Source: Croceimicrobium hydrocarbonivorans (GTDB lineage Bacteria > Bacteroidota > Bacteroidia > Flavobacteriales > Schleiferiaceae). From it: a DNA stretch of 64,000 nucleotides. The DNA is taken from assembly GCF_014524565.1 (NCBI RefSeq), contig NZ_CP060139.1, forward strand, positions 1,557,501 through 1,621,500, in the 5' to 3' direction. This document shows positions 31,013 through 49,870 of the stretch, piece after piece. The position numbers were made by a program, and so were the translations under genes. Under the pieces are notes generated by a model, which made no database searches, had not been told where the DNA came from, and saw nothing but the letters and a program-made list of their open reading frames with translations. The number at the start of each line of letters is the position of its first letter. Within the stretch, counting starts at the first letter, position 1.

Positions 31013-34000
31013 ATGACTTTTCGCCGTCTTTCCCTGCTCTTGCTCAGTCTCTTTATCCTGAGCTGTAACAACCAACCTGAAATCCCCGAAAATGACCCGG
31101 CTTTTGCCGATTATATCCTGGCCCATACCTCAGGAGTCATTTCTGCTTATTCGGAGATTGAGATTCATCTGGCCCAAGACCTAAATCCCGGGGTGGAACC
31201 CGGAACCCCCATTGAAGCGAAGATCTTTGATTTCAGTCCGGACATCAAAGGCCAGGCAGTTTGGGAAAGTAGCAGCGAAATTCGCTTTAAGCCGGAAGAA
31301 AGTCTTAAACCTGGCCAGCATTACAGCGCTGAATTCGAATTGGGCAGCCTCACCACGGTAGAGTCCAAATTAAAAACCTTCGAATTTGCTTTTCAAGCCA
31401 TTGAACAGTCTTATGCCTTGCTGCAATTTCATATCGAACCCTATCAGGCTAAAAACCCTGCTTTAAATGTTTTAAAGGGAGAGATCAATACCGCCGATTT
31501 AAGTCATGCCGAAGAGCTGAGTGAAGCCTTGAAGTTTGAAGGTATAGAAAGCAGCTCTATTCATTGGAACCCCGGTAGCGATGAGCACCGTTGGCTCTTT
31601 AGTATTGATTCGATTGAACGAAAGGAAAAGGCTTCCGAGATTCCCATCCTTCATAAGAGTAAAGAAATTGGCAGCCTAAGGGTACCCAGCCTCTCCGACT
31701 TTGAGGTGATTGGCGTTTACGTACAGCAATTACCGGTGCAAAAAATCAGCATCTCCTTTTCTGATCCTCTCAGCGAAAAACAAAGTACCAGCGGTATGTT
31801 TCAGGTGGACGGCGAAGATGTAGCCTCTCTGGAAATTGAAGGCTCCGTAGTGCATCTCTACCCTAAGAGTCGTAAAACCGGTACGGTGGCTCTAAAAATT
31901 TACCCGGGCTTAAAAAACATCCTCGGCTACAAATTCCCTAAAGAATACATTACACAGGTAAGCTTCCAGGCGCGGAAACCCGAAATTCGTTTTGTAAACA
32001 GTGGTACCATCATCCCCACCAAGGGTTCCGTAAATATTCCTTTTCAGGCAGTAAGCCTACGTGCGGTAGACCTTAAGGTGTATCAAATCTTCGCCAATAA
32101 GGTGCATCAGTTTTTACAAATTAATAAACTGAGTGGCAAACGCGAATTACGAAGGGTAGCTCGCCCTATTCATCGTGAACGCATTGAACTGGATGGCGAA
32201 GGCTTAAACCTGCAAGAATGGAACAATTTTGCCATCGACCTGGATCGCATCATCGAAAGGCAACCGGGTGCTATCTACCGCATTGAAATCGATTATCAAA
32301 AAGCCTATTCGCTTTACCCTTGTGAAGGCGACGAGAATAGTGAACTGCAAAGTCTGGAGGCCGAAAACTGGGATGAACCCGAAGAAGTATTCGACGAAGA
32401 CTATTACGACTACTGGTACTTTGATGGTTATGATTACAGCGAACGCGATAATCCTTGCCATATCTCTTATTACAACCGCTCTCGGAAAATTGAGCGCAAT
32501 GTCTTAGCCTCCGATATTGGCCTGGTGGTAAAGGGAACCGATAAGGAATGGTATGCCTATGCCCAACGCATTTCGAGCACCAGCTCCTTAAATGGGGTTA
32601 AAATCAAATACTACAATTATCAAGGTCAACTCATTAAAGAAGGAGTTACCGATGGAGATGGCTATCTGCGCTTAGATTTAGACACCCGACCATTTTTAGT
32701 GGTGGCGGAAAGTGGCTCCGAGCGCGCTTACCTCAGTCTGGAAAACAGCAGCAGCCTTTCCGTTTCCAGCTTTGCCGTTGGAGGTCGCGATGTGAGTACC
32801 GGCATTGAAGGGATGATCTATACCGAGCGCGGAATTTGGCGACCTGGAGATACCCTCTTCCTCGACTTCATTTTAAACGACACCAAAAACCCCTTACCGG
32901 CCAGTCACCCCATCGTGCTCACTTTAAAAGACCCTCGCGGTCAAGAGGTCTATCGCACGGTTCAGCCTCGGAAATCGGTTCAAATATTCAGCTTCCCGGT
33001 AACCACCAGCAAGGAGGCCATTACTGGTAATTACAGCGCGCAAATCAAAGTGGGTGGTAAAAGCTTTTACAAATCTCTACCCATTGAAACCATCCAACCC
33101 AACCGCCTCGATATCACCCTGAGTGCACCAGCGGAAATTATCGATGGTAGCCAAAGAGGTGAAACCGAAATTAAGCTGGAAGCCGAATGGCTCACTGGTG
33201 CATCAGCCTCAGATTTGCAGGCAGAAGTGCGTGCCAGTATTTCGGGGAATCCCAGGGCTTTCGCCGATAAGCACCCACTTTTTGATTTCTACGATGAATC
33301 GCGTTCCGTTCCTTCCATGTCGGGCAATGAAATCTTCAATGATAAATTAGATGCCACAGGAATGGCCGACATCACCGCCGATTTGGGTTACCTGAAAAAC
33401 AGCCCCGGAATGCTCCGCCTCAATATGGGCACCAAGGTCTTTGAGCCCGGCGGTCGTTTTAGCATTAATAGCACCAGCCTCGAATTAGCGCCTTTCAAAA
33501 ACTTTGTGGGTATCCAAATGCCCGAAACCAATAAATACGGCTATCTCGAAACTGAAAAAGATCATCCGGTAGGCTTAATCCGGGTAAACCAAAAAGGCGA
33601 AGCTGTCAATGGCAAGGTTAAGGTGAGTGTTTACAAGGTGAGTTGGTCTTGGTGGTGGTCGGCCCAAAGAGGCAATGCCACCTACTTAAATAACAGCTCC
33701 AATAACCGTATTGCCAGCGAAGAAGTAGAGCTAGTAAATGGCCGCGGTCGTTACACTTTAAACATACCTGATGACCATTGGGGTCGACTCTATATCGTTG
33801 TTGAAGATCCAGAAAGTGGTCACCGTAGCTCCAGTCTGGCCTATGTAGATTGGGGCTGGGGCCGCGATCGCAGTGGCAGAGCCGGTGGTGAATCAGTAAG
33901 TGTATTGAATGTTCAAACCGATAAGGACAATTATCAAGTGGGCGAAACCGCTAAAATCAGTGTGCCCAGTGCCGCAGGTGGTCGCTTAATCCTCAGCTAT

Positions 34001-36493
34001 GAAAATGCTACAGGCCAAATCACCCAAAAGGTATTGGCTACCAATGCAGGATCTACAGTGCATGAGCTTAAGATCACCCCAGAAATGGCGCCTAACTGCT
34101 ATGCTCATGCTATGATTTTACAGCCCCATAGCAGTAAAGGCAATGATTTACCCCTAAGGCTTTATGGCATCATCCCCATTATGGTGGAGGATCCGGCTAC
34201 GCATTTACACCCACAGATTGAAGCACCGGAGAAAATCCGTCCCAATTCGGAGTACAACATTAAGGTGAGCGAGAAAAATGGGGTAGCTATGGAGTACACC
34301 CTGGCGGTGGTTGATGAAGGACTCTTAGGGCTCAACAATTTCCAAAGTCCAGACCCCTGGCCTTATTTCTATTCTAAAATTGCTTTGGGTTTACGCACCT
34401 GGGACCTATACGATGAAGTGATTGGTGGCTTTAGTGGTGAAATCGCCAAAATGCTGGCTATTGGTGGTGATGGTGCCCTACTCGAAAGCAATGAGGAAGA
34501 CGCTGATCGCTTTGTACCGGTGGTGCGTCACTTAGGACCTTTCAAGCTAAAGGCGGGCGAAAAGGCTAATCACAAATTGCAAATGCCCAATTACATAGGT
34601 AATGTGCGGGTGATGGTAGTAGCCGCCAATGATAAGGAAGCTTATGGCGCTGCCGATACCAATATTCGGGTGAAACAACCTTTGATGGTTCAAATGACCG
34701 TACCTCGGGTATTAGGCCCTGAGGAGGAACTACTAGTTCCGGTGACGGTATTTGCCATGGAAGAGGGCATTAAGGATGTAAACCTGGAACTGAGTTCTAC
34801 TGGCAAAATTGAGCTGATTGACCGCAATAAAAAAGTGACTTTCTCGAAAACCGGACAACAAACCGTCTACTTCAAGGCTAAGGTAAAACGGGCCTTAGGA
34901 AAGGGCAGTTTAAAAATCACCGCTAAATCCGGTGCAGAGAAAAGCTTTGAAGAAACTGAAATTGCGGTGCGCAGCCCTATGCGTCGCCAAAAACAATTCC
35001 ACGATGCAATTTTGGAAGACAGCAATCCGGTAAGCTATAAAGCGGAGCCCTTTGGAATTGCAGGAAGTAATAAGCTTACGGTAGAAGTAAGCAGCCTACC
35101 AAAGATGAACCTAAGCGAGCGTTTGGAATACCTTATTGGCTATCCGCATGGTTGTTTGGAGCAGACTACCTCCAAATGCTTTGCTCAGCTTAATCTGAAT
35201 AAATGGATTAAACTGGATGCCAATCAAAAAGCAGCAATTGAGAGTAATATTCAAGCGGGCCTATCCAAATTGAGAACCCTGCAATTGGGTGAAGGTGGCT
35301 TCCGCTACTGGCCGGGACAGAACTATGCCAATGCCTGGGCTTCTACCTATGTAGGGCATTTTATGCTTTCCGCCGAAAAGGCCGGCTATAAGCTCCCGGT
35401 AGGAATGAAGGATTCTTATTTACGCTTTGCGCGCAAGGCGGCGCGGGAGTGGAATAACAATAATCACTATTCCTATAACAATGATTTCAACCAAGCTTAT
35501 CGACTCTATGTTTTGGCATTGGCCGGAAGACCCGAATTAGGGGCCATGACGCGCTTGAAAAACCGCAATGACCTTACGCGCTCCGCCGCCTTCCGTTTAG
35601 CAGCGGCCTATGCCTTGGTGGGCGAAAAAGAGGCAGCCCGTGCACTCTTGCAAGCTCATGACTATACCGAAGCTGAAGATCGTTATTACTATTACTGCTA
35701 TGGTAGTGCTACCCGCAGCCTGGCCATGCAAATGGAAACTTTCTATGCCATGGGCGATAAGGAAGAAGCCCTGCGCTTAGCCAAAGAAATTGCGGATAAA
35801 CTGAGTGATGGTTGGCATAGTACCCAAACCATTGCTTATACCCTACAGGCTATGAGCCAGGTATTTGGGGGTGGCACCGAAAAAATGGATTTCGAATTGG
35901 TGGTGAATGGCAAAACACGCCGTATTAGCAGCGACCTCAGCGTATTCCAATATGAAGATGCAGCATTTGAAAAGGCTCAAGATATCAGCGTCAAAAGCTT
36001 AAATGGACAATCGCTCTACCTTACGGTGATGCGTGAGGGCCTACCCGTTTACGGAAGCGAAACAGCAAATAGCAGTCGTATTGATATGACGGTGCAATAC
36101 CTCGATCAAAGTGGAAACAAACTAGATCCTTCGGCCTTAAAAATTGGCACCCCGATTATCGCTAAAGTGACCCTGCAACGATTAAGCTTATCCAAAGATT
36201 ATGAGAACCTGGCGGTGAGTCAACTCTTCCCCAGTGGTTGGGAAATCACCAATAATCGAGTACTGGCTGGTGGCGATGACACGGAAACCTATTTCGACTA
36301 TCAGGATATTCGCGATGATCGGGTACTGACCTATTACAATGGCTATCGCACGCCACGCATGACCATCCAAGTAGAGCTTACCGCTACCTATCCTGGAAAA
36401 TGGTATTTGCCTCCCACTTGGGCAGAAGCGATGTACGAAGGAAGCATTAACGCCAATAATGTAGGCCAATGGGTAGAAGTCCTCGTCGACTAA
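31013..36493 (+). CDS. Alpha-2-macroglobulin-family lipoprotein with intact thioester
   Basis: 1826 residues. Lipoprotein signal with Cys18 (LFILSCNNQ), then a long series of MG-type beta domains ('GIEGMIYTERGIWRPGDTL' is the typical A2M stretch), and the thioester motif GCLEQ with Cys1381 and Gln1384 followed by 'TTSKCFAQLNLNKW' and the alpha-alpha thioester-domain repeats ('GEGGFRYWPG'). Family knowledge: bacterial A2M traps attacking proteases in the periplasm by covalent bonding. Overlaps the pbpC start by 25 bp; the A2M/PBP1C pair is a recurrent arrangement in bacteria, thought to protect and repair the envelope. Confidence 0.95.
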   Translation: MTFRRLSLLLLSLFILSCNNQPEIPENDPAFADYILAHTSGVISAYSEIEIHLAQDLNPGVEPGTPIEAKIFDFSPDIKGQAVWESSSEIRFKPEESLKPGQHYSAEFELGSLTTVESKLKTFEFAFQAIEQSYALLQFHIEPYQAKNPALNVLKGEINTADLSHAEELSEALKFEGIESSSIHWNPGSDEHRWLFSIDSIERKEKASEIPILHKSKEIGSLRVPSLSDFEVIGVYVQQLPVQKISISFSDPLSEKQSTSGMFQVDGEDVASLEIEGSVVHLYPKSRKTGTVALKIYPGLKNILGYKFPKEYITQVSFQARKPEIRFVNSGTIIPTKGSVNIPFQAVSLRAVDLKVYQIFANKVHQFLQINKLSGKRELRRVARPIHRERIELDGEGLNLQEWNNFAIDLDRIIERQPGAIYRIEIDYQKAYSLYPCEGDENSELQSLEAENWDEPEEVFDEDYYDYWYFDGYDYSERDNPCHISYYNRSRKIERNVLASDIGLVVKGTDKEWYAYAQRISSTSSLNGVKIKYYNYQGQLIKEGVTDGDGYLRLDLDTRPFLVVAESGSERAYLSLENSSSLSVSSFAVGGRDVSTGIEGMIYTERGIWRPGDTLFLDFILNDTKNPLPASHPIVLTLKDPRGQEVYRTVQPRKSVQIFSFPVTTSKEAITGNYSAQIKVGGKSFYKSLPIETIQPNRLDITLSAPAEIIDGSQRGETEIKLEAEWLTGASASDLQAEVRASISGNPRAFADKHPLFDFYDESRSVPSMSGNEIFNDKLDATGMADITADLGYLKNSPGMLRLNMGTKVFEPGGRFSINSTSLELAPFKNFVGIQMPETNKYGYLETEKDHPVGLIRVNQKGEAVNGKVKVSVYKVSWSWWWSAQRGNATYLNNSSNNRIASEEVELVNGRGRYTLNIPDDHWGRLYIVVEDPESGHRSSSLAYVDWGWGRDRSGRAGGESVSVLNVQTDKDNYQVGETAKISVPSAAGGRLILSYENATGQITQKVLATNAGSTVHELKITPEMAPNCYAHAMILQPHSSKGNDLPLRLYGIIPIMVEDPATHLHPQIEAPEKIRPNSEYNIKVSEKNGVAMEYTLAVVDEGLLGLNNFQSPDPWPYFYSKIALGLRTWDLYDEVIGGFSGEIAKMLAIGGDGALLESNEEDADRFVPVVRHLGPFKLKAGEKANHKLQMPNYIGNVRVMVVAANDKEAYGAADTNIRVKQPLMVQMTVPRVLGPEEELLVPVTVFAMEEGIKDVNLELSSTGKIELIDRNKKVTFSKTGQQTVYFKAKVKRALGKGSLKITAKSGAEKSFEETEIAVRSPMRRQKQFHDAILEDSNPVSYKAEPFGIAGSNKLTVEVSSLPKMNLSERLEYLIGYPHGCLEQTTSKCFAQLNLNKWIKLDANQKAAIESNIQAGLSKLRTLQLGEGGFRYWPGQNYANAWASTYVGHFMLSAEKAGYKLPVGMKDSYLRFARKAAREWNNNNHYSYNNDFNQAYRLYVLALAGRPELGAMTRLKNRNDLTRSAAFRLAAAYALVGEKEAARALLQAHDYTEAEDRYYYYCYGSATRSLAMQMETFYAMGDKEEALRLAKEIADKLSDGWHSTQTIAYTLQAMSQVFGGGTEKMDFELVVNGKTRRISSDLSVFQYEDAAFEKAQDISVKSLNGQSLYLTVMREGLPVYGSETANSSRIDMTVQYLDQSGNKLDPSALKIGTPIIAKVTLQRLSLSKDYENLAVSQLFPSGWEITNNRVLAGGDDTETYFDYQDIRDDRVLTYYNGYRTPRMTIQVELTATYPGKWYLPPTWAEAMYEGSINANNVGQWVEVLVD

Positions 36494-38757
36494 TACTGCG
36501 CCGTATTGCCCTAATTGCGGGCCTGATATTTTTAATTTGGTGGTGGAATTGCCTGCCCGAGCCCCTCTTTGACCCGCCTTATAGCACGGTTACCGAGGCA
36601 GAGAACGGGCAATTATTGGGCGCGCGTATTGCGGAAGATGAACAATGGCGTTTCCCACCGGCGGATTCGGTGCCGATGCGCTTCCGGCAGGCGATTGTAC
36701 AGTATGAGGATGAGCATTTCTATTCGCATCCCGGCTTTAACCCCATTGCCATTGTTAGGGCCCTGTATCAAAATTGGCAGGCGGGTGAAGTTGTTTCTGG
36801 AGGCTCCACCATTAGCATGCAATGCATACGCCTGGCTCGTGGCAATCCACCGCGCACCTATTGGGAAAAGTTTACCGAGATCTTGCGAGCCCTGCGATTG
36901 GAGCTAAGCTATTCTAAGGAAGAAATTTTAGAACTCTATGCCAGTCAAGCTCCCTTTGGTGGCAATGTGGTAGGACTGGAAGCAGCCGCCTGGCGCTATT
37001 TTGCCCTGGCTCCGCATCGTTTATCCTGGTCGGAATGCGCGGCCCTAGCCGTATTGCCTAATGCACCGGGCATCATACACCCCGGACGTAATCACCAGAC
37101 ATTTGAGCAAAAACGCAATCGTCTGCTGCAAAAACTACTAAGCGAGGAAGTGATTGACTCCCTTACCTATCGCCTTTCTTTATTGGAAGAACTACCCCTG
37201 GAGCCGCAAGCCTTACCTGATATTGCCCATCATCTTAGTCAGTACCAAATGAAGATGATGCCGGAAAGCCGATTGCGCAGCAGCTTAAATGCCAATTGGC
37301 AAAAGCATATCCAAGATTTGGTAAACCTCCATGTTTTACAATGGCGGGGGAATTCTGTGCATAATTCAGCGGCTCTGGTTATGGATCTTCAAGATGGGAG
37401 TATCAAAGCCTATGTTGGCAATACCACCAATGAGCTGGCCGATGGCAAGGAGATTAATATGCTCAATAAACCGCGTAGTACGGGCAGCATTTTAAAACCC
37501 ATGCTCTATGCCGATGCCATGGCCTTGGGGCAATTATCTTCTCGGGCTCTGGTCCCTGATATCCCAACCCGCTTCGGTGATTTCACTCCTAAGAACTTCG
37601 ATCTTAAATACCGAGGCGCCACCCCGGTTTACAGAGCCCTGCAGCAATCTTTAAATGTGCCTGCCGCTCGAGTCTTAAGAGATATGGGCGTTCCCGTATT
37701 CTTGCATCGCTTGCGTGCCTATGGCTTGCAAAATTTAGATCGCGATGCCGGCTATTACGGCTTATCTCTAATCTTAGGAGGAGCCGAAGTGCCAGCCCTG
37801 CAAATTGCCCATATGTATCGACGCTGGATTTGGGCCATGCAAGGCAAAGAAGAAGACAGTATTTATGATATACTGGGGCAGGCTCAAGACTGGGGACCAA
37901 TCCCCAATTCAGATCCGGCAGCGATTTACAGCAGCTTGCAAATTATGGAGGGCCTAAATCGACCCAGCAACTGGCAACAATGGGGCTCCAGCCGACGAAT
38001 AGCCTGGAAAACCGGAACCTCCTATGGCTTTAGAGATGCCTGGGCCGTGGGTACCGATGGTCGATGGTTGGTTGTTTGCTGGACTGGCAATGCTAATTAT
38101 GAGGGGCGACCCGGAGTTATTGGAGTAGAGACCTCAGCGCCCTTGCTCTTTAGTATTATGGATTATTTGCCTGCCTCTCCCTTCTTTGAACCACCCTATG
38201 ACTGGCAGCATGCCAAGGTGATTTGCCGCGAAAGTGGTTTTTTGGCGCAAGAGCACTGTCGCTATAGGGATACCATTTACGGCTCTAAAGCGAGCCTTAA
38301 GAACTGCCCCTATTGCGAGCCCATTTTCTTGAACACTAAAGGATTAAGAGTACATCGCGAATGTAGCTTGGATGAACCCAAAGATTCGAGCTGGATGATT
38401 TTAAGTCCGGCCATGACCTGGTATGCCCAACGTTCAGAATTGAATTATAAGGCGCCTCCGGATTGGGATCCTCAATGCCTGGCGCCAATAGATGAAGTTC
38501 TGAAATTTATTTACCCGGAAAAATTTGAGGTCGTGCGTCGATCCCGTGATTTTGAAGGAACCCTTGGAAAGGTGATTCTCGAAGCAGGGCATCGACAAGG
38601 AGAAGTGGAGGTTTTCTGGTATGTGGATGACGAATACATCGGCTCCAGCCGGATCAATCACCGCATGGAAGTAGCCTTAGAGCTCGGCACCCACCGCCTC
38701 TTGATTATGGATGAAAAAGGAAATTCGGCCCAGTCATTTATAAAAGTGGTGGATTAA
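36469..38757 (+). CDS. pbpC: Penicillin-binding protein 1C
   Basis: 762 residues. One N-terminal membrane anchor (IALIAGLIFLIWWW), GT51 transglycosylase domain with the catalytic motif EDEHFYSHPG (Glu80) and 'GGSTISMQCIRLARG', transpeptidase domain with Ser340-x-x-Lys343 (TGSILKPM) and KTGTSYGFRDAW, then a C-terminal PBP1C-type beta domain. Periplasmic peptidoglycan synthase. The ATG at 36469 lies inside the end of the A2M gene, so translation is coupled. Confidence 0.95.
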   Translation: MGRSPRRLILRRIALIAGLIFLIWWWNCLPEPLFDPPYSTVTEAENGQLLGARIAEDEQWRFPPADSVPMRFRQAIVQYEDEHFYSHPGFNPIAIVRALYQNWQAGEVVSGGSTISMQCIRLARGNPPRTYWEKFTEILRALRLELSYSKEEILELYASQAPFGGNVVGLEAAAWRYFALAPHRLSWSECAALAVLPNAPGIIHPGRNHQTFEQKRNRLLQKLLSEEVIDSLTYRLSLLEELPLEPQALPDIAHHLSQYQMKMMPESRLRSSLNANWQKHIQDLVNLHVLQWRGNSVHNSAALVMDLQDGSIKAYVGNTTNELADGKEINMLNKPRSTGSILKPMLYADAMALGQLSSRALVPDIPTRFGDFTPKNFDLKYRGATPVYRALQQSLNVPAARVLRDMGVPVFLHRLRAYGLQNLDRDAGYYGLSLILGGAEVPALQIAHMYRRWIWAMQGKEEDSIYDILGQAQDWGPIPNSDPAAIYSSLQIMEGLNRPSNWQQWGSSRRIAWKTGTSYGFRDAWAVGTDGRWLVVCWTGNANYEGRPGVIGVETSAPLLFSIMDYLPASPFFEPPYDWQHAKVICRESGFLAQEHCRYRDTIYGSKASLKNCPYCEPIFLNTKGLRVHRECSLDEPKDSSWMILSPAMTWYAQRSELNYKAPPDWDPQCLAPIDEVLKFIYPEKFEVVRRSRDFEGTLGKVILEAGHRQGEVEVFWYVDDEYIGSSRINHRMEVALELGTHRLLIMDEKGNSAQSFIKVVD

Positions 38758-41401: not shown

Positions 41402-41899
41402 TTGTACCCCTTAAGATCTATCCTTGTATTACTGCTCTTTTTCTTCGCCCTAAATGTGGTGGGCGAATTGGTGACCGGCCCCTTGATGGGTGATGCGATT
41501 CCCGCCTGGAAAATTGCCGCCGTAAGCCTAATTTCTGCCTTGGGGGCAAGCTATCAATTAAGCCGACGAGGTCTAAAACCCGGCGATGTTTTTAAGTACT
41601 TCCGCCGAACTTATTTGGTTCCCGGATTGGAATTGGAGCGCCTTTATCCCGCCCTACTGGAAAAATTTCCCCCGCGAGAATTTAAAGTGGACTTGAGTTC
41701 GGATCATCAGGAAATTCGCATCCGCCGTAAGGCCAATTGGCGCAGCTTTGGTGAGGTTCTTAGCCTGAAAATTGTAGATTCTCATTTGCAGCTCTGGATC
41801 CGACCTAAGTATTATATCGATGTATTTGATCAAGGCCAGGCCTATGAGAGTCTGTTGCAGCTAGAGCAAGTCCTAAATACGGAAAGCTATGAGGCCTAA
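41402..41899 (+). CDS. Small membrane-anchored protein, unknown
   Basis: 165 residues if translation starts at the TTG at 41402; there is no ATG near the N-terminus, so the start is uncertain. Two N-terminal hydrophobic segments (LRSILVLLLFFFALNVVGELV, AAVSLISALGASYQL; given as approximate) are followed by a soluble alpha/beta part with basic stretches. No family recognised. Its end overlaps the MBL hydrolase start by 11 bp, so it belongs to the same transcript. Confidence 0.55.
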   Translation: MYPLRSILVLLLFFFALNVVGELVTGPLMGDAIPAWKIAAVSLISALGASYQLSRRGLKPGDVFKYFRRTYLVPGLELERLYPALLEKFPPREFKVDLSSDHQEIRIRRKANWRSFGEVLSLKIVDSHLQLWIRPKYYIDVFDQGQAYESLLQLEQVLNTESYEA

Positions 41900-42794
41900 T
41901 TTCAAAATTTGGATTGGCATCTTAATAAGCCTACAGCTTTCGGCCCAAAAGCTCATGGTATTGGGTCGTGCCCAAGATGCAGGAAAACCTCAACTAGGCT
42001 GCGAAAAAGAATGTTGCCAGCCTGGAGCCACTAAAGGCAATGTGGTTTCCTTAGCCTGGCTGGAGCCGGATTCGGCACAATGGACCTTAATTGAAGCCAG
42101 TCCGGATATTAGCGAGCAATTTCAATTAATTCCCCAAGGCTATGGCCGCTTACCCAAGGCTGTTTATGTTAGTCATGCCCATATTGGTCATTATACGGGA
42201 TTGATGTATTTCGGTCGGGAAGCCTGCAACACTCATCAATTGCCCTTATTTTGTGGAGAGCGAATGGCCGAATTTCTAAGTACGAATGGGCCCTGGTCGC
42301 AATTATTCGAATTGCAAAATTTGAAGCTCCATCCTCAGAAAGCCAGCCTAAAAGCGGCAGATCTTATTGCGCAGGTGGACAGTCCCGGCATTTATGTTTT
42401 TAAAGTACCCCATCGGGATGAATTCTCCGAAACCCTGGCCTATATCATTAAAGGAAAATCCAAGACGGCTCTTTTTATTCCAGATATCGATAAATGGCAG
42501 CTTTGGGATGAGGATATTGTGGAATTGGTGCAAGCGGTAGACTATGCGCTTTTGGACGCAACCTTTTACAATGCCGAAGAATTGCCAGGCCGCGATATGA
42601 GTGAGATTCCCCATCCCTTTGTAGTGGAAAGCATGGCCCTGTTCGATCGCTTAGATACGGAAGAAAAAGCCAAGATTCACTTCATCCATCTCAATCATAG
42701 CAATCCCCTTTGGAAGCCTCAATCGGATGCTTTTAAGGAAGTGGAAGCCAAGGGCTATCGCTTATCCTGGAAGGGACAAATCTTTAATCTATGA
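41889..42794 (+). CDS. Exported metallo-beta-lactamase-fold hydrolase, PqqB-like
   Basis: 301 residues with a signal peptide (IWIGILISLQLSAQ). Metal motif 'VSHAHIGHYTGLMYFG', and the PqqB-like opening 'VLGRAQDAGKPQLGCEKECC', where a CxxxCC cluster could bind another metal. 'ALFIPDIDKW' and 'HFIHLNHSNPLW' complete the fold. The Asp of HxHxDH is replaced by Gly. Periplasmic hydrolase, substrate unknown. Its last four bases overlap the next start (ATGA). Confidence 0.82.
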   Translation: MRPNFKIWIGILISLQLSAQKLMVLGRAQDAGKPQLGCEKECCQPGATKGNVVSLAWLEPDSAQWTLIEASPDISEQFQLIPQGYGRLPKAVYVSHAHIGHYTGLMYFGREACNTHQLPLFCGERMAEFLSTNGPWSQLFELQNLKLHPQKASLKAADLIAQVDSPGIYVFKVPHRDEFSETLAYIIKGKSKTALFIPDIDKWQLWDEDIVELVQAVDYALLDATFYNAEELPGRDMSEIPHPFVVESMALFDRLDTEEKAKIHFIHLNHSNPLWKPQSDAFKEVEAKGYRLSWKGQIFNL

Positions 42795-44506
42795 GTAAAG
42801 CAGGGCGAAAACTGTGGCGGCGTTTTATTCTCCTGGCTATCGCCTTTGGCCTGGTCATTTTTTCGGCCCTTTTCTTTTGGGCCCGGGTAAATTACCCTTC
42901 CTACGCCAAGGACTTTTACATCAGTCATAAATGGGGCGAGCGCGATCAAGCAGTGCTGCTTAAAACTCAAATTGCGGATTACAGTCAATATGAATTAAAT
43001 CCCGCTTTTGAGCATCGCTATGTACAGCTCAACCAAAGTGAAGATTGGCAAATTCCAACTGCCCTTATTGAGGACCTTCCGACCCAAGCCTCTTTAATAA
43101 TTGATCTCGAATGTTGGGGAAGTAAATATTGGCCGGTATACCGCAGTGCCCCTCTGGGCGCAGTTTCGGAGGGAGTTTACGATCAAAAGATTATCCAATT
43201 AGCGGATATGTTGGCCAGCCTCAAGCAGGAGGTCTACCTCAATTTCAATCCTCAAATGGAAGTCCCCGGGCGCTTTTTTCCCTGGCAAGAATATCCTTCC
43301 GTTTATATCGATGCCTATCGCCATGTGCAGGCCCTAATAAAATCCAAAGCCCCCAGCGTAAAAATGCTTTGGTCGCCGGCAGGTTATCCCGGTTTGGAGG
43401 AGTATTATCCCGGTTCCGATTATGTAGATGCTCTGAGCATCACCCTCATCGCTCATTCGGAAATCCCTTTAGAGGTTTATCCCAAAATGAAATTAGAAGA
43501 TGAAGTGTACCGCCGCTTACATCGCCTGCGTTTCTTTAATCATGAATGCCTAGTTTTAGCCGGACAGTATGATGATCTAAGCCCGGAACTCTGGCAATCA
43601 CAAATCGCCTTTCAGAAAGCAAATCCCCAACTTTACAATAGGCAATATTTTGAGCATCTGGAAACCAAAGTCGCTGAGGACAGCCTCTTCCATTTAGGAG
43701 TATATGATCCCGATCGAAAATTAGATGACCTGGCTGGAATTAATGCCGAGCATCTCTTTATCAATTTAGCGACCTATAAAAAGGAGGGCTTCTTTGAGGA
43801 ATTGGAAAAAGTAAAGCAAAATGGACGCGAGCTTATCCTTACCCTCGAGACCATAGAAGATCGCAATTTTGAGCGCGATGATCAATGTTTGGAAAAGCTC
43901 TTGAATGGTGAATACGATCCGGAATTAGAAGAGCTTTTAGATAGCCTGCAACATTTCCCACGGCAGATATACCTCCGCTTTTCCCAAGAAATGGAGATCC
44001 CCATTGAGCGCTATCCCTGGCAAAGTAAAGATCCCAAATTGTACATCGATGCCTATCGGTATTTGATGCTTAGAGCCGAAAAGGCAATTCCCAATATCTT
44101 AAAAGTATGGGGGCCGGCGGGCGATCGTGGTTCTTTGGAATGGTACCCGGGCAGTGATCAGGTAGATTATATCAGCATCGCCATTTATGGCCTGCCGGAT
44201 AAGAATATCACCGACCCCACCCAGCAGGAGCAATTCGCGCAAATTTACCGACGTAAATCCTGGCGAATGCGGCAAGCCCCCGAGCCCATTTTCATCACCG
44301 AATTTGGTGTAAAGGGCCCTGAAGATTTTCAGGAACAATGGCTTTTAAAGGCGGCCGAAACTATAAAATCGGCTGAGGAGATTGCAGGTATTAACTACTT
44401 CAATATGCATGATGTGCCTAAAGCCTGGGGCGATATTGCTCCACCCGATTGGAGTGTGGAAGCCCAAACTTATCGCAACTTTATAAAGGCTCTCGATCGA
44501 CCCTAG
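42791..44506 (+). CDS. Membrane-anchored tandem GH26-like protein
   Basis: 571 residues: one N-terminal transmembrane helix (about 12-31) and two copies of a GH26-like segment. Copy 1 around 148-262 and copy 2 around 393-508 share 'FF/YPW', 'YIDAYR', '(S/G)PAG', 'YYPGSD'/'WYPGSD'. Copy 2 keeps both acids expected of GH26: Glu400 (QEMEIP) and Glu504 (FITEFGV). Copy 1 has Gln155 and Gly258 at these sites and is presumably inactive. GH26 enzymes cut beta-mannans and related glycans; the substrate here is unknown. Faces the periplasm by topology. Last gene of the 38.8-44.5 kb run. Confidence 0.75.
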   Translation: MSKAGRKLWRRFILLAIAFGLVIFSALFFWARVNYPSYAKDFYISHKWGERDQAVLLKTQIADYSQYELNPAFEHRYVQLNQSEDWQIPTALIEDLPTQASLIIDLECWGSKYWPVYRSAPLGAVSEGVYDQKIIQLADMLASLKQEVYLNFNPQMEVPGRFFPWQEYPSVYIDAYRHVQALIKSKAPSVKMLWSPAGYPGLEEYYPGSDYVDALSITLIAHSEIPLEVYPKMKLEDEVYRRLHRLRFFNHECLVLAGQYDDLSPELWQSQIAFQKANPQLYNRQYFEHLETKVAEDSLFHLGVYDPDRKLDDLAGINAEHLFINLATYKKEGFFEELEKVKQNGRELILTLETIEDRNFERDDQCLEKLLNGEYDPELEELLDSLQHFPRQIYLRFSQEMEIPIERYPWQSKDPKLYIDAYRYLMLRAEKAIPNILKVWGPAGDRGSLEWYPGSDQVDYISIAIYGLPDKNITDPTQQEQFAQIYRRKSWRMRQAPEPIFITEFGVKGPEDFQEQWLLKAAETIKSAEEIAGINYFNMHDVPKAWGDIAPPDWSVEAQTYRNFIKALDRP

Positions 44507-44577
44507 TGAACATTTAGGGAGCTGAAATGCTATTTCAAGAATTGCGTGTAACTTCCACGACCCTAAATTTCAGCGCT

Positions 44578-47500
44578 ATGAATGTACGATTGAGAATGGC
44601 CTGCCTCCTTTTTGGAATGAGCTTTGGCCTCTATGCCCAGCAGGTAAACAGCACTGGACTTCAAGAAATGGAAACAGCCGGTTGGTATCGATATACCGGT
44701 AGTCAAAGCTTAAGCGCGGAGGCCTTTATTGAGCAGTACCATCAACAATTGGGATTAGGCGAAAAAGATCGCTTGGAGCTGCAAAGAGTGAGCTATGGCA
44801 AAGACGGTTCCGAGCATCGCCATTATCAGCAATTGCATCAAGGAATCCCAGTGGAAGCGGGAGAGCTGATTATTCACCTACGCAATAATGCAGTATACCT
44901 GGCCAATGGCGAAATTGTATCCGATTTAAACTTAAATCCAGAGGCAAGCATCAGCGAAAGCCAAGCTTTACAATATGCCCTCAATTATTTCCCCGCTCAA
45001 ATCTTTGCCTGGGAAGCCAAGGGAGAAGCCAGACCACAAGGAAACCTGGTTATTCTCAATAAGAATTTCAGCAAGGAAGCTCAGCAATATCAGCTCAGCT
45101 GGAAATTTGATGTATACAGCTATGAGCCTTATGATCGCAATTGGGTTTATATCAACGCTCAAAACGGCAGCTTAAGCCATAGCCTTAGTCGCATTCACAG
45201 TCAGGATACCGGTACAGCACGCACCAAGTATTCGGGCACACGCAGTATTTACACCAGCTACGATAGCGATTCGGCTCTTTATGTTTTGCACGATAGCCTT
45301 ACTGGCGGAGGGATCTACACCTTCAATATGCAAAAGCGGACCAATAAGGGGACGGCGATCGACTTTTACGACGATGACAATTACTGGAATAATTTCAATG
45401 CCAATTTTGATGAGGCGGCTACCGATGCGCATTGGGGTGCAGAGAGAGTTTACAGCTACTTTAAACAGCATTACAATCGCTTCAGCTACGATGATCAAAA
45501 TTCGCCGCTCAACTCTTTTGTACACTACGATTCCAATTATGTAAATGCCTTTTGGAATGGTCAGGAAATGACTTATGGTGATGGCAATGGTGTCGCTTCC
45601 ACCCCATTAATTTCTCTGGATGTGGTAGCCCATGAAATCACCCATGGTATTACCGAATACACCGCCAATTTGATCTATCAGGGAGAATCTGGCGCGCTCA
45701 ATGAATCCTTCAGCGATATTTTCGGAGCAGCGATTGAGTTTGCCTATGATTCGGCCGGTGGAGATTGGAAAATGGGTGAAGACTTTTTAAATACTGGCAA
45801 TGGCCTGCGAAACCTGCGCAATCCCGCTCAGTTTAATCATCCCAATACGTATAAAGGCAATAATTGGGGCCAGGGTCTCTTTTTCGACAATGGCTATGTA
45901 CACAGTAATTCTGGGGTTCAGAACTTTTGGTACTACCTGCTAAGTGATGGTGATTCTGGCGTGAACGACAATAATGATCGCTACGATATTGAAGGTCTTG
46001 GCTATCAAGCTGCAGCGGATATTGCCTACCATAATCTCGACAATTACCTCACCCGTTTTTCGGATCATTTTGATGCCCGCATGGGGGCCATGCAATCGGC
46101 CATCGACCTTTATGGGGCCTGCTCTAATGAGTATATTCAAACCACCAATGCCTGGTATGCAGTGGGAGTAGGAGAGCCTACCGGCGATTATGATCTTAGT
46201 CTTGATGCACTGGTGCTTCCCGAACGTGACTGCAGTTTAGGTGCTGCGGAAGATGTGATTTTTGTAATTCGCAATAATAGCTGCGCCCAAAGCATTACAG
46301 CGGGAACGGCAATTAACCTCAGCTACAGCATTAATGGCGGACTCCTGCAAACCATGAGTACCGTAATTAGCAATACCCTTTTACCGGATTCTGTGGCCTA
46401 TATCGTACACAGTCAAACTGCCGATTTAAGTCAGACGGGTAATTACGATTTCTTCGCCTCGATATCCACATCCAGCGACAGCCTTACTTACAATAACACC
46501 TACGAGCAAAGGGTTCGCCAAGAAAGCTATCAGAATGCCGAATGGAAATTGCTGGAGGTGCTCAATCCTATCTCGGGCTGTGAGTTAAATGACAGTACCA
46601 ACATTAGCCTAGCCGCAGTATTCCTGGGTTGTGATAGCCTAGCTGTAGGTACCAATATTTCATTAGACTACAGTTTATCCGGCACTGCCAGTCAAAATAT
46701 CGGCACCAGCTTAAGCAGAAGCGTGCATTATGGTGACACCCTAATTCTCGACTTCCCAACCAATTTGAATATGGATGCGCGTGGGGCCTATACCCTTACT
46801 TTAAACCTGGTATACAGCGGCGATCCTACTTTGAATAACAACCGCATTGTGAACTATCGGGTTCTAAAACCTTATGAATTACTGGGCGGAAAAATCGGCT
46901 TTGAGGACTTCGCCTATGCAGATTCCCTGCTTATTCGCCATGGTAACAATAGCAGCAGTAGACGCAATTCTGTGGCCAGTACCGGTAATCGCGGACTGGA
47001 AATAGTGGGTGGCCCGCTGGTTAATTATTCGGATCCTTTTGAGGTGCCTCGCAATGACACTGCCGTTTGGCAGGTAAATCCCAGCTTCCGCTCCACTTAT
47101 TGCACCTGTGTAGATGCCCGTCAGGAAGGAGCCTTGCAATTAAACTTCGATTTACAGCAGGCTTATACTCGCCTAATCCGACGTTTGCGTTCAGAACCCA
47201 GTAACAGCGCTTATACCAGCAGCTTGCGGGTTTTAGCCAATGGACAGCCGGTTAGCGGAACCTTTATTGCCAGCAATCCGGATGGCGATGGATTCCAAAG
47301 TCAAATTGTGAATTTGGATGATTTTGCCGGGCAGTATTTCGAGCTCTGTTTTGAGACCCATCTATTGGTGGATAAGCGTACCAATTCGGTCACCAATGAT
47401 GGCGATATTATCAACCTCGATAATATTTACTTAGGCAGCAGCGGCATTGGTCTAAAAGAACCTAAGGTAGCCAGCTTTAGCTTTGCGCTCTATCCTAATC

Positions 47501-47724
47501 CTCATAATGGTGATTTCAATATTCGCTTAGAAAAAGCTTCCGCCGGTACCTATGAATTGGAAGTACAGGATTTCCAAGGTCGAGTGATCAGCAAACGCAG
47601 TATTCAAACCCAAGCCGGGGATCAAAATTGGAACTTTAGCACGGATCTGGCCGCAGGTACCTATTTCGTGCTATTACGCAGTCCGGAGGGAAAACAGTAT
47701 GCCCAGCGCATGATTATTCAATAG
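44578..47724 (+). CDS. T9SS-secreted M4 (thermolysin-family) metalloprotease
   Basis: 1048 residues from the ATG at 44578, chosen because it starts a signal peptide (MNVRLRMACLLFGMSFGLYAQ). FTP/PepSY-like propeptide (to about 230), M4 catalytic domain with HEITH (His352, Glu353, His356) and the third zinc ligand Glu376 in GALNESFSD, then beta-rich CARDB-like regions, and a C-terminal type A T9SS sorting domain ('FALYPNPHNGDFNIRL' ... 'YAQRMIIQ'). Extracellular neutral protease. Convergent with the next gene, overlapping by 11 bp. Confidence 0.95.
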   Translation: MNVRLRMACLLFGMSFGLYAQQVNSTGLQEMETAGWYRYTGSQSLSAEAFIEQYHQQLGLGEKDRLELQRVSYGKDGSEHRHYQQLHQGIPVEAGELIIHLRNNAVYLANGEIVSDLNLNPEASISESQALQYALNYFPAQIFAWEAKGEARPQGNLVILNKNFSKEAQQYQLSWKFDVYSYEPYDRNWVYINAQNGSLSHSLSRIHSQDTGTARTKYSGTRSIYTSYDSDSALYVLHDSLTGGGIYTFNMQKRTNKGTAIDFYDDDNYWNNFNANFDEAATDAHWGAERVYSYFKQHYNRFSYDDQNSPLNSFVHYDSNYVNAFWNGQEMTYGDGNGVASTPLISLDVVAHEITHGITEYTANLIYQGESGALNESFSDIFGAAIEFAYDSAGGDWKMGEDFLNTGNGLRNLRNPAQFNHPNTYKGNNWGQGLFFDNGYVHSNSGVQNFWYYLLSDGDSGVNDNNDRYDIEGLGYQAAADIAYHNLDNYLTRFSDHFDARMGAMQSAIDLYGACSNEYIQTTNAWYAVGVGEPTGDYDLSLDALVLPERDCSLGAAEDVIFVIRNNSCAQSITAGTAINLSYSINGGLLQTMSTVISNTLLPDSVAYIVHSQTADLSQTGNYDFFASISTSSDSLTYNNTYEQRVRQESYQNAEWKLLEVLNPISGCELNDSTNISLAAVFLGCDSLAVGTNISLDYSLSGTASQNIGTSLSRSVHYGDTLILDFPTNLNMDARGAYTLTLNLVYSGDPTLNNNRIVNYRVLKPYELLGGKIGFEDFAYADSLLIRHGNNSSSRRNSVASTGNRGLEIVGGPLVNYSDPFEVPRNDTAVWQVNPSFRSTYCTCVDARQEGALQLNFDLQQAYTRLIRRLRSEPSNSAYTSSLRVLANGQPVSGTFIASNPDGDGFQSQIVNLDDFAGQYFELCFETHLLVDKRTNSVTNDGDIINLDNIYLGSSGIGLKEPKVASFSFALYPNPHNGDFNIRLEKASAGTYELEVQDFQGRVISKRSIQTQAGDQNWNFSTDLAAGTYFVLLRSPEGKQYAQRMIIQ

Positions 47725-48170: not shown

Positions 48171-48236
48171 GTTTATTTAGAGCCACTCTGGGCGGCTTAA
48201 TTCGTAACTTAGATGTTTCTCCAAGCCTTATTGTAC

Positions 48237-49085
48237 ATGTATACTCGTGAAGAGCTGTGTAAAGTAAAACAGCGCAAGGATTTGGTTCAGATTGCCGAGC
48301 AAAGTGGGACCGATCTCAGTAAAATTATTCGCAATCAACGCTATGAAGAAGAACTGCGCCTGCTGCAAACCGAATTGGTGAATTTGCAGCGCTGGGTAGC
48401 CAAGAAAAAGCTCCGAGTAGCGGTGCTCTTCGAAGGTCGGGATGCGGCTGGCAAAGGGGGGTCAATTAAGCGCTTTGTAGAACATCTCAATCCACGTTCC
48501 ATGCGGGTAGTGGCCCTTTCTAAACCCACCGAGGTAGAGAGCGGTCAATGGTATTTCAGGCGCTATATTAAGGAGCTCCCCAATCCGGGTGAGATTGTTT
48601 TCTTTGACCGTTCATGGTACAACCGAACGGTGGTAGAACCGGTTATGGGATTTTGCAATACCGAGCAATACGATCGCTTTATGGTGCAGGTGCCGGGCTT
48701 TGAGCATATGCTCTATGAGGATGGAGTAATCCTGATCAAATTTTGGTTTTCCATTTCCAAGGAGGAGCAAAAGAAACGCTTTAAATCGCGGATGAAAAAC
48801 CCCTTGAAGCAATGGAAATTTTCGCCGGTAGATATGAAGGGACAGGAATTATGGGATCGCTATACCTATTATAAGGAGCAAATGTTTTCCAAGACCCACA
48901 CCACCTTCAGTCCTTGGATCATTGTAAAAACCAATAATAAACGGGAAGCGCGTTTGGAAAGCATCCGCTATGTGCTCTCCCAACTCCCCTATCAAGATCG
49001 AAGGCTAAAAAACCGGACCACCATTTTACCCGATCCCAATGTGGTAGCACGCTATTATCGACATATTGAACAAATTGACATCTAA
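48237..49085 (+). CDS. ppk2: Polyphosphate kinase 2 family protein (copy 1)
   Basis: 282 residues from the ATG at 48237; an upstream ATG at 48213 would add 8 residues but directly abuts a -7-like TAACTTAG (48205-48212). Walker A 'FEGRDAAGKGGSIKRF', 'HLNPRSMRVVALSKPT', Walker B-like 'VFFDRSWYNRTVVEPVMGF' and lid 'KNPLKQWKFSPVD' are PPK2 hallmarks. Transfers phosphate between polyphosphate and nucleotides; direction and nucleotide preference are not predictable. Shares one base (TAATG) with the second ppk2. Confidence 0.93.
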   Translation: MYTREELCKVKQRKDLVQIAEQSGTDLSKIIRNQRYEEELRLLQTELVNLQRWVAKKKLRVAVLFEGRDAAGKGGSIKRFVEHLNPRSMRVVALSKPTEVESGQWYFRRYIKELPNPGEIVFFDRSWYNRTVVEPVMGFCNTEQYDRFMVQVPGFEHMLYEDGVILIKFWFSISKEEQKKRFKSRMKNPLKQWKFSPVDMKGQELWDRYTYYKEQMFSKTHTTFSPWIIVKTNNKREARLESIRYVLSQLPYQDRRLKNRTTILPDPNVVARYYRHIEQIDI

Positions 49086-49870
49086 TGAATCCGAAAGAAA
49101 AAGAAATCATGGCCCTGAGCGATGCCGAGCTGGAATTGCTCAATTCTCCGCTGGGATTGAAATACCTTTTTGCGGATAAGAAAACGGATGTTTTGAAGGC
49201 ATTGCGATTAGCCAATTATGAGCAACGTTTGCGCGACTTACAAGCCGAATTAATTCAACTCCAAGAATGGGTAATTGACCAACAGAAAAAGGTGGTTATC
49301 CTCTTCGAAGGTCGCGATGCCGCGGGTAAAGGCGGTGCTATTCGCCGGATTGCCGCACACATTAATCCCCGGCATTATCGCATTATCGCTCTGCCTAAAC
49401 CGACTGAAGAAGAATCTGGTCAGTGGTATTTTCAGCGCTATGTAAATCATTTGCCCAAGCCCGGGGAAATGGTATTCTTCGATCGATCCTGGTACAACCG
49501 AGCGGTGGTAGAGCCTGTGAATGGATTCTGCACGGCCGAACAATATGAAACTTTTATGGCTCAGGTGAACGACTTTGAGAGGATGCTACAAAGCTCAGAC
49601 ACCTATCTCATCAAGTTTTACTTCTCCATCACTAAGGAAGAGCAGGCGCGTCGTTTTGCTGATATCAAAAGTAGTCCTTTGAAGCGTTGGAAAATGACTC
49701 CGGTAGATGAAGCGGCACAAGGGCTATGGGATGAATACACCTCTTACAAGGAGCGAATGTTTAAGGAAACCCATACTGAGAATGCCCCCTGGATCATAAT
49801 TCAGGCCGATCAAAAAACCAAAGCCCGACTGGAAGCTTTGGAGCATGTTTTGAAATCCTTACCTTACTAA
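49085..49870 (+). CDS. ppk2: Polyphosphate kinase 2 family protein (copy 2)
   Basis: 261 residues. Walker A 'FEGRDAAGKGGAIRRI', 'HINPRHYRIIALPKPTEEES', 'VFFDRSWYNRAVVEPVNGF', lid 'SSPLKRWKMTPVD'. Clearly a paralogue of the preceding gene but diverged (different N-terminus, MNPKEKEIMALSDAELE). The start overlaps the upstream stop by one base, so the two are made together, perhaps in a fixed ratio or as a heteromer. Confidence 0.93.
   Translation: MNPKEKEIMALSDAELELLNSPLGLKYLFADKKTDVLKALRLANYEQRLRDLQAELIQLQEWVIDQQKKVVILFEGRDAAGKGGAIRRIAAHINPRHYRIIALPKPTEEESGQWYFQRYVNHLPKPGEMVFFDRSWYNRAVVEPVNGFCTAEQYETFMAQVNDFERMLQSSDTYLIKFYFSITKEEQARRFADIKSSPLKRWKMTPVDEAAQGLWDEYTSYKERMFKETHTENAPWIIIQADQKTKARLEALEHVLKSLPY

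Follow-up and report, generated by a model that had tools for sequence, protein, structure and literature searches.

A tandem GH26 protein with one live-looking and one catalytically incompetent copy co-occurs with a BcsA-like GT2 synthase in Bacteroidia

Introduction

It has long been asked why synthase operons, such as those for cellulose, PNAG and periplasmic glucans, encode enzymes that cleave the product made there. In Escherichia coli, OpgB has a role in the osmoregulated periplasmic glucan system. The E. coli OpgG/OpgH/OpgB system combines a GT2 synthase with a periplasmic glucan-cutting protein, one paralogue of which has low activity (PMC10514313). In pseudomonads, the BcsA-like GT2-GH17 "orphan" synthases and the NdvB cyclic beta-glucan synthases have a periplasmic GH-A barrel that is proposed to cut and re-join newly made beta-1,3-glucan (PMC10237404).

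Several other reports touch on parts of such an arrangement. A GH26 gene lies in an actinobacterial Wzx/Wzy cluster, and the authors of that work knew of none such that had been characterised (PMC13390465); some GH113 genes near GT2 genes have been suggested to serve polysaccharide building (PMC9032380); and a GT2 that makes mixed-linkage glucan has been reported (PMC10374906). A GH26 enzyme with an inserted binding module has also been described, the layout of which differs from a live-dead tandem (PMC13357471). Our literature search, which covered titles and the beginnings of abstracts, with subscription literature mostly outside its reach, found no paper on a GT2-GH26 synthase of the kind described below or on a live-dead GH26 tandem.

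Here, we analyze a gene for a tandem GH26 protein located in a 64,000-nt stretch of the Croceimicrobium hydrocarbonivorans genome (the window), together with its relatives and with a family of GT2 synthases that accompanies it.

Results

The tandem GH26 gene (42791..44506, plus strand) begins with an ATG start codon and encodes 571 amino acids followed by a stop codon, with no internal stop. The first-pass annotation had placed its product at the inner membrane, and the N terminus bears this out: residues 12 to 30 (42824..42880, plus strand) form a hydrophobic segment with a mean Kyte-Doolittle value of 2.64, compared to a maximum of 0.95 elsewhere in the protein, and this segment is preceded by five K/R and no D/E residues. 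A scan of residues 1 to 40 found no Cys, and thus no lipobox. These features fit a signal anchor, with the remainder of the protein predicted to be periplasmic. Immediately upstream, an MBL-fold hydrolase gene (41889..42794, plus strand), which we treat as context only, overlaps the start of the tandem gene by 4 nt at its 3' end, and the order of the two genes is kept in five genomes of the genus. Gene starts in the relatives were set at the first possible start codon, and overlaps of a few nucleotides are approximate. On the other side, the tandem gene adjoins a gene for an M4 thermolysin-like peptidase with a T9SS sorting tail (44527-47724 in the window), again in five genomes of the genus. 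Elsewhere in the window are two adjoining PPK2 polyphosphate kinase genes, both with strong Pfam matches (48213-49870), and a PBP1C gene (TIGR02073) right after a 1,826-aa open reading frame that has no NCBIfam match (31013-38757).

The two internal repeats seen on first inspection were recovered by two kinds of comparison. BLASTP aligned the N half with the C half of the protein at 39 identical residues of 99 (39%; 77.8 bits; E value of 2e-21), and a profile-profile comparison of copy 1 (residues 50 to 296; 42938..43678, plus strand) with copy 2 (residues 297 to 571; 43679..44503, plus strand), using 11 rows for each copy, gave a probability of 100 and an E value of 3.9e-39 over 229 columns. 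This alignment sets Q155 against E400 and G258 against E504. The four residues on which the initial distinction between the copies was drawn can be read directly from the sequence, and the alignment matches their positions: Gln155 (43253..43255) and Gly258 (43562..43564) occupy the acid/base and nucleophile sites of copy 1, and Glu400 (43988..43990) and Glu504 (44300..44302) are the corresponding acid/base and nucleophile of copy 2, all on the plus strand.

Pfam GH26 (PF02156) matched the whole protein in two stretches at 39.1 bits, with a cutoff of 20.2; taken singly, copy 1 (20.7 bits) and copy 2 (21.7 bits) barely exceeded this cutoff. At an E value of ≤0.1, the profile matched 7 of 11 members of copy 1 and likewise 7 of 11 of copy 2. 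In profile searches, the best solved relative of copy 2 was the GH26 lichenase CtLic26A (5.7e-14), with whose HE and AEF glutamates E400 and E504 line up, and that of copy 1 was a GH26 beta-1,3-xylanase (9.1e-12). Copy 2 belongs to GH26 by profile and, at the sites on strands 4 and 7, has both catalytic Glu residues. Copy 1 is a GH26 homologue that lacks the catalytic Glu pair of a GH26 enzyme (Q155 and G258) and, judging by its sequence, cannot act as a classical retaining glycosidase.

Structure models were built from shallow alignments that comprised the window protein and the L011, L012 and L013 proteins only. The model of copy 1 (8 alignment rows) was of low confidence, with a pLDDT of 57.4 and a pTM of 0.65. 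All four of its Foldseek matches at an E value of ≤0.001 were CtLic26A, and its ten best rows in VIA-align were all GH26 chains (Z of 10.2 to 11.3, rmsd of 3.7 to 4.5, 184 to 199 residues), with mannanases trailing at a Z of about 9. The full-length model (4 alignment rows) was poor (pLDDT of 51.5, pTM of 0.37), and its best fold-search rows were again GH26. The suggestion that both repeats are GH26-like, rather than one or neither, is in keeping with the ten best structural matches of the copy 1 model, low in confidence as that model is.

A two-copy tandem GH26 protein was found in 21 different genomes from three families: 6 of 7 genomes in the genus, 7 of 88 in the family, 5 of the 395 genomes sampled from the class, 11 of the 201 of family f55 and 3 of the 120 of family f3. 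A phylum sample yielded five tandem genomes, all already present in the class sample, and no further independent case, and viral contigs scanned with copy 2 gave no match. Both catalytic Glu residues of copy 2 are present in all 21 genomes (19 of 19 in the first set and both of the genomes added later, G1028 and G1032). The nucleophile Glu of copy 1 is present in none of the 21, and no relative has Glu at the position of Gly258; among 19 relatives, no carboxylate is conserved at the end of the nucleophile strand of copy 1. The acid/base site of copy 1 varies over the 21 genomes: Asp occurs in 10, Glu and Gln in 5 each and Tyr in 1. Gln155 is specific to five members of the genus, and the missing nucleophile is common to all 21 genomes; the shared, ancient lesion of copy 1 is the nucleophile, not Gln155. 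In copy 2, the acid/base Glu is preceded by Gln399 in six genus members, the window genome included, and by His in the other 13 of 19. A His ahead of the acid/base Glu is usual for GH26 and not a defining feature; its replacement by Gln399 lowers the certainty of copy 2 activity and leaves the homology unaffected.

Conservation differs between the copies, with 17 of 233 columns of copy 1 invariant in 19 relatives versus 74 of 272 columns of copy 2. The invariant columns of copy 1 include W109, E157, P164-W165-Q166, G198, P200-G201, E224 and H244. Part of the cleft is kept, as seen in the MEVP, PWQ and GYPG motifs. In addition to MEVP and PWQ, which are shared, copy 1 has invariant residues of its own at P200, E224 and H244.

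In a tree of 39 GH26 domains, copy 1 (100/100) and copy 2 (97/90) each formed a clade, and the two clades grouped together (99/94). The nearest other row was a single-copy GH26 gene of G475, located behind a GT2 gene. The simplest account is one duplication, followed by loss of the copy 1 nucleophile and then by spread over families, with the nucleophile predicted to have been lost before the known lineages split. The pairing of one live-looking with one catalytically incompetent GH26 copy, first proposed for the window protein, thus holds at the level of residues, and the tree indicates a single internal duplication. Comparison of the window genome (G000) with G001 gave dN/dS values of 0.155 for copy 1 and 0.034 for copy 2; by this estimate, copy 1 evolves faster than copy 2 yet is under purifying selection. 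Because of this dN/dS value and the 17 invariant columns in 19 relatives, we regard copy 1 as kept and not as junk. Between the same two genomes, synonymous divergence was 0.23 to 0.39 for the tandem GH26 copies and 0.62 to 1.16 for the GT2 gene.

One subfamily of BcsA-like GT2 synthases is present in 18 of the 21 tandem genomes. In the class sample of 395 genomes, the GT2 gene was found in 20 and the tandem gene in 5, all of which are within the 20 (hypergeometric probability of 2e-7, uncorrected for kinship). In family f55 (201 genomes), 13 genomes have the GT2 gene, 11 have the tandem gene and 10 have both (1.3e-13, likewise uncorrected for kinship). The best solved match of the GT2 is the cellulose synthase BcsA (8.2e-35), yet it falls far under the curated cellulose synthase cutoff. 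Toward its C terminus, it often carries a GH26 domain and then a GH158-like barrel. When the GT2 proteins of the set were examined for a GH17 barrel of the NdvB type, the domains found were GH26 and GH158-like.

In the 18 genomes with both genes, the two are neighbors in 10 (nine of them with both in one operon) and apart in 8. The f55 operon, found in eight genomes (G331, G303, G563, G570, G670, G640, G627 and G652), consists of a lipoprotein-like gene, the GT2 synthase gene and, last, the tandem gene, all on one strand with gaps within ~25 nt. In G549, the tandem gene is the convergent neighbor of the GT2 gene. G1028 and G1032 were found in family f3 after the GT2 pattern had already been seen, and both fit it: the GT2 is present, copy 1 has no nucleophile and copy 2 has both Glu residues. 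In G1032, a four-gene run (L188:3129-12605) encodes a GH158-like protein, a GT2-GH26-GH158-like protein, an LtaS/sulfatase-like membrane protein and the tandem GH26 protein. An LtaS-like gene also adjoins the tandem gene in G1028 and G415 and is one gene apart in G245, for a total of 4 of 21 genomes. It is similar to lipoteichoic acid synthase and to phosphoglycerol transferase I, yet it falls under every curated NCBIfam cutoff; its place in the G1032 run suggests that the glycan is modified. The layout differs in G367 and G629 (L138:6299-9195 and L177:1286-4148, respectively), in which a shorter GT2 gene (~535 aa) precedes a single GH26 gene that stands by itself and encodes both catalytic Glu residues.

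Three tandem genomes, G582, G015 and G003, have no GT2 of this subfamily. In G582, the start and anchor of the tandem gene are replaced by unrelated sequence, and in G015, there is a stop codon within the anchor region. Damage to the tandem gene was seen in none of 16 genomes with the GT2 and in two of three without it (Fisher's exact test, 0.0175; G1028 and G1032 are outside this count). In the third genome, G003, which is 99% complete in a single contig, the tandem gene is intact, which argues against strict dependence of the tandem gene on the GT2.

The GT2 locus of the window genome lies near 1.96 Mb and the tandem gene at 1.60 Mb, ~360 kb apart, and the two genes are unlinked in all five genus members that have the GT2. 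In the window genome's GT2 synthase (G000:C1:1960588-1964220; L096:4526-8215, minus strand), the middle GH26 domain is decayed and the GH158-like barrel at the C terminus has no catalytic Glu; the synthase gene is preceded by one for a live-looking GH158-like lipoprotein. In 5 of 5 genus GT2 proteins examined, that of the window genome included, the fused GH26 keeps a family trace and has no nucleophile. A PF02156 search of the window genome found the tandem ORF and no other locus. With the fused GH26 decayed and PF02156 matching only there, copy 2 is the sole live-looking GH26 site of this genome. We considered whether the tandem gene replaces in trans a fused GH26 that is dead or missing. 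All five genus proteins would agree with this, but class-wide there was no association: the fused GH26 is not live in 10 of 16 GT2 genomes with the tandem gene (5 dead, 5 absent and 6 live) and in 10 of 16 without it. We therefore rejected simple replacement in trans as a class-wide explanation. These counts omit G367 and G629, in which the GH26 is a separate adjacent gene, and the later additions G1028 and G1032, whose fused GH26 domains have both Glu residues.

The first gene of the operon, which is lipoprotein-like, is GH158-like; the window genome's copy matched BuGH158 (6pal) at 5.2e-40. Both Glu residues are present in this lipoprotein in 23 of 23 genomes. In the GH158-like barrel carried on the GT2, both are present in only 5 of 23 genomes and in none of 15 tandem genomes examined (G002, split over contigs, is left out of the GH158 count, and G1028 and G1032 came later). 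As a pattern in sequence, the tandem GH26 protein thus appears to mirror, in one chain, the pairing of a live GH158 lipoprotein with a dead GT2 barrel. The association with the GT2 and the GH158-like gene moves the likely role of the tandem protein from glycan use to glycan synthesis.

Discussion

We consider it fairly probable that the tandem protein, anchored in the inner membrane and located in the periplasm, is a processing subunit for beta-glucan synthesis, of which copy 2 cuts and copy 1 binds the chain. Its task is probably to trim and hold a sugar chain during synthesis. The GT2 would extrude a beta-glucan that contains 1,3 links, and in the periplasm copy 1 would hold the glycan chain for copy 2, and copy 2, a putative retaining endo-glycosidase, would cut or transfer it; the GH158-like protein may also act on the glucan. 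The tandem protein would then be an accessory of a GT2 system that includes a GH158-like lipoprotein as well as, in some of the genomes, an LtaS/phosphoglycerol-transferase-like protein. As for the polymer, the likeliest is a beta-glucan containing 1,3 links (beta-1,3 or mixed 1,3;1,4), an assignment that we infer from the nearest solved relatives in a family that holds mannanases too.

The binding role given to copy 1, which on first inspection was proposed to be a glycan-binding or regulatory module, has two competitors. Faster evolution than copy 2, a smaller share of invariant columns (17 of 233 versus 74 of 272) and a weak Pfam match are all what one would expect if copy 1 were a passive scaffold or a slowly decaying leftover with no binding role. 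We give this limited credence, since all 21 genomes, which span three families, have retained copy 1, since its dN/dS is well below 1, and since it has invariant residues of its own (P200, E224 and H244) on top of the MEVP and PWQ motifs that are shared. It is very improbable that copy 1 is active in another way, for example, with its nucleophile at another position or by forming part of a transglycosylase together with copy 2: in the window protein, the two sites are Gln155 and Gly258, and the nucleophile strand end is without a conserved carboxylate among the 19 relatives, even though the acid/base site holds a carboxylate in 15 of 21 genomes (Asp in 10 and Glu in 5) and Glu157 is invariant in 19 of 19.

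Other readings concern the process that the whole protein serves. It could be an ordinary GH26 enzyme of catabolism, a glucanase or mannanase in which the additional barrel binds food polysaccharide; Bacteroidota GH26 enzymes usually serve uptake loci, and the window gene does not adjoin the GT2 gene. We regard this as unlikely, given that the window genome has no second PF02156 locus, that the protein has an inner-membrane signal anchor and is not a lipoprotein, and that the tandem gene co-occurs and forms operons with a GT2 synthase. Nor do we find it likely that the window genus has re-used the tandem protein for another envelope glycan, apart from the GT2. There, the tandem gene is unlinked from the GT2 gene and overlaps the MBL-fold gene, and G003 has an intact tandem gene with no GT2; against this, the GT2 is kept in 5 of 6 genus members with the tandem gene, and the tandem gene is damaged in two other genomes that are without the GT2.

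A wider and more doubtful conjecture can be drawn: an undescribed beta-glucan synthase system of Bacteroidia may contain live-dead pairs in both periplasmic hydrolase families, GH158 with its live lipoprotein and a dead barrel on the synthase, and GH26 with both barrels in one anchored protein, with the dead barrels acting as chain guides or length gauges that feed the live ones, to yield periplasmic glucans of set size that are modified by the LtaS-like protein in some species. The locus offers a testable candidate for how Bacteroidia might make and size their own beta-glucan, with a hydrolase in the synthase operon and an inactive twin beside it. Since the live-dead pair occurs naturally in one chain, its binding and cutting parts could be altered separately.

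Among characterized proteins, CtLic26A (PDB 2bvd, 2cip and 2vi0) has the same two catalytic Glu residues as copy 2 and is the top structural match of the copy 1 model. CtLic26A is the single secreted catalytic barrel of a degrader and is not known to have a dead second barrel, a membrane anchor or a synthase partner. The lipoprotein-like gene that precedes the GT2 resembles that for the GH158 endo-beta-1,3-glucanase BuGH158 (PDB 6pal) and keeps both Glu residues throughout; BuGH158 sits in a glucan-use locus (PMC7157763), whereas the GH158-like gene is here in a synthase locus. The Opg system (PMC10514313) likewise has a GT2 and a periplasmic cutter, and the LtaS/phosphoglycerol-transferase-like gene that lies next to the tandem gene or close to it in four genomes, although below curated cutoffs, may add to this likeness; the Opg system differs in that OpgG and OpgD are GH186. 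The GT2-GH17 and NdvB synthases (PMC10237404) share with the present system a membrane GT2 with a periplasmic clan GH-A barrel, but the barrels here are GH26 and GH158-like, some of them dead, and the tandem GH26 is an anchored protein in its own right.
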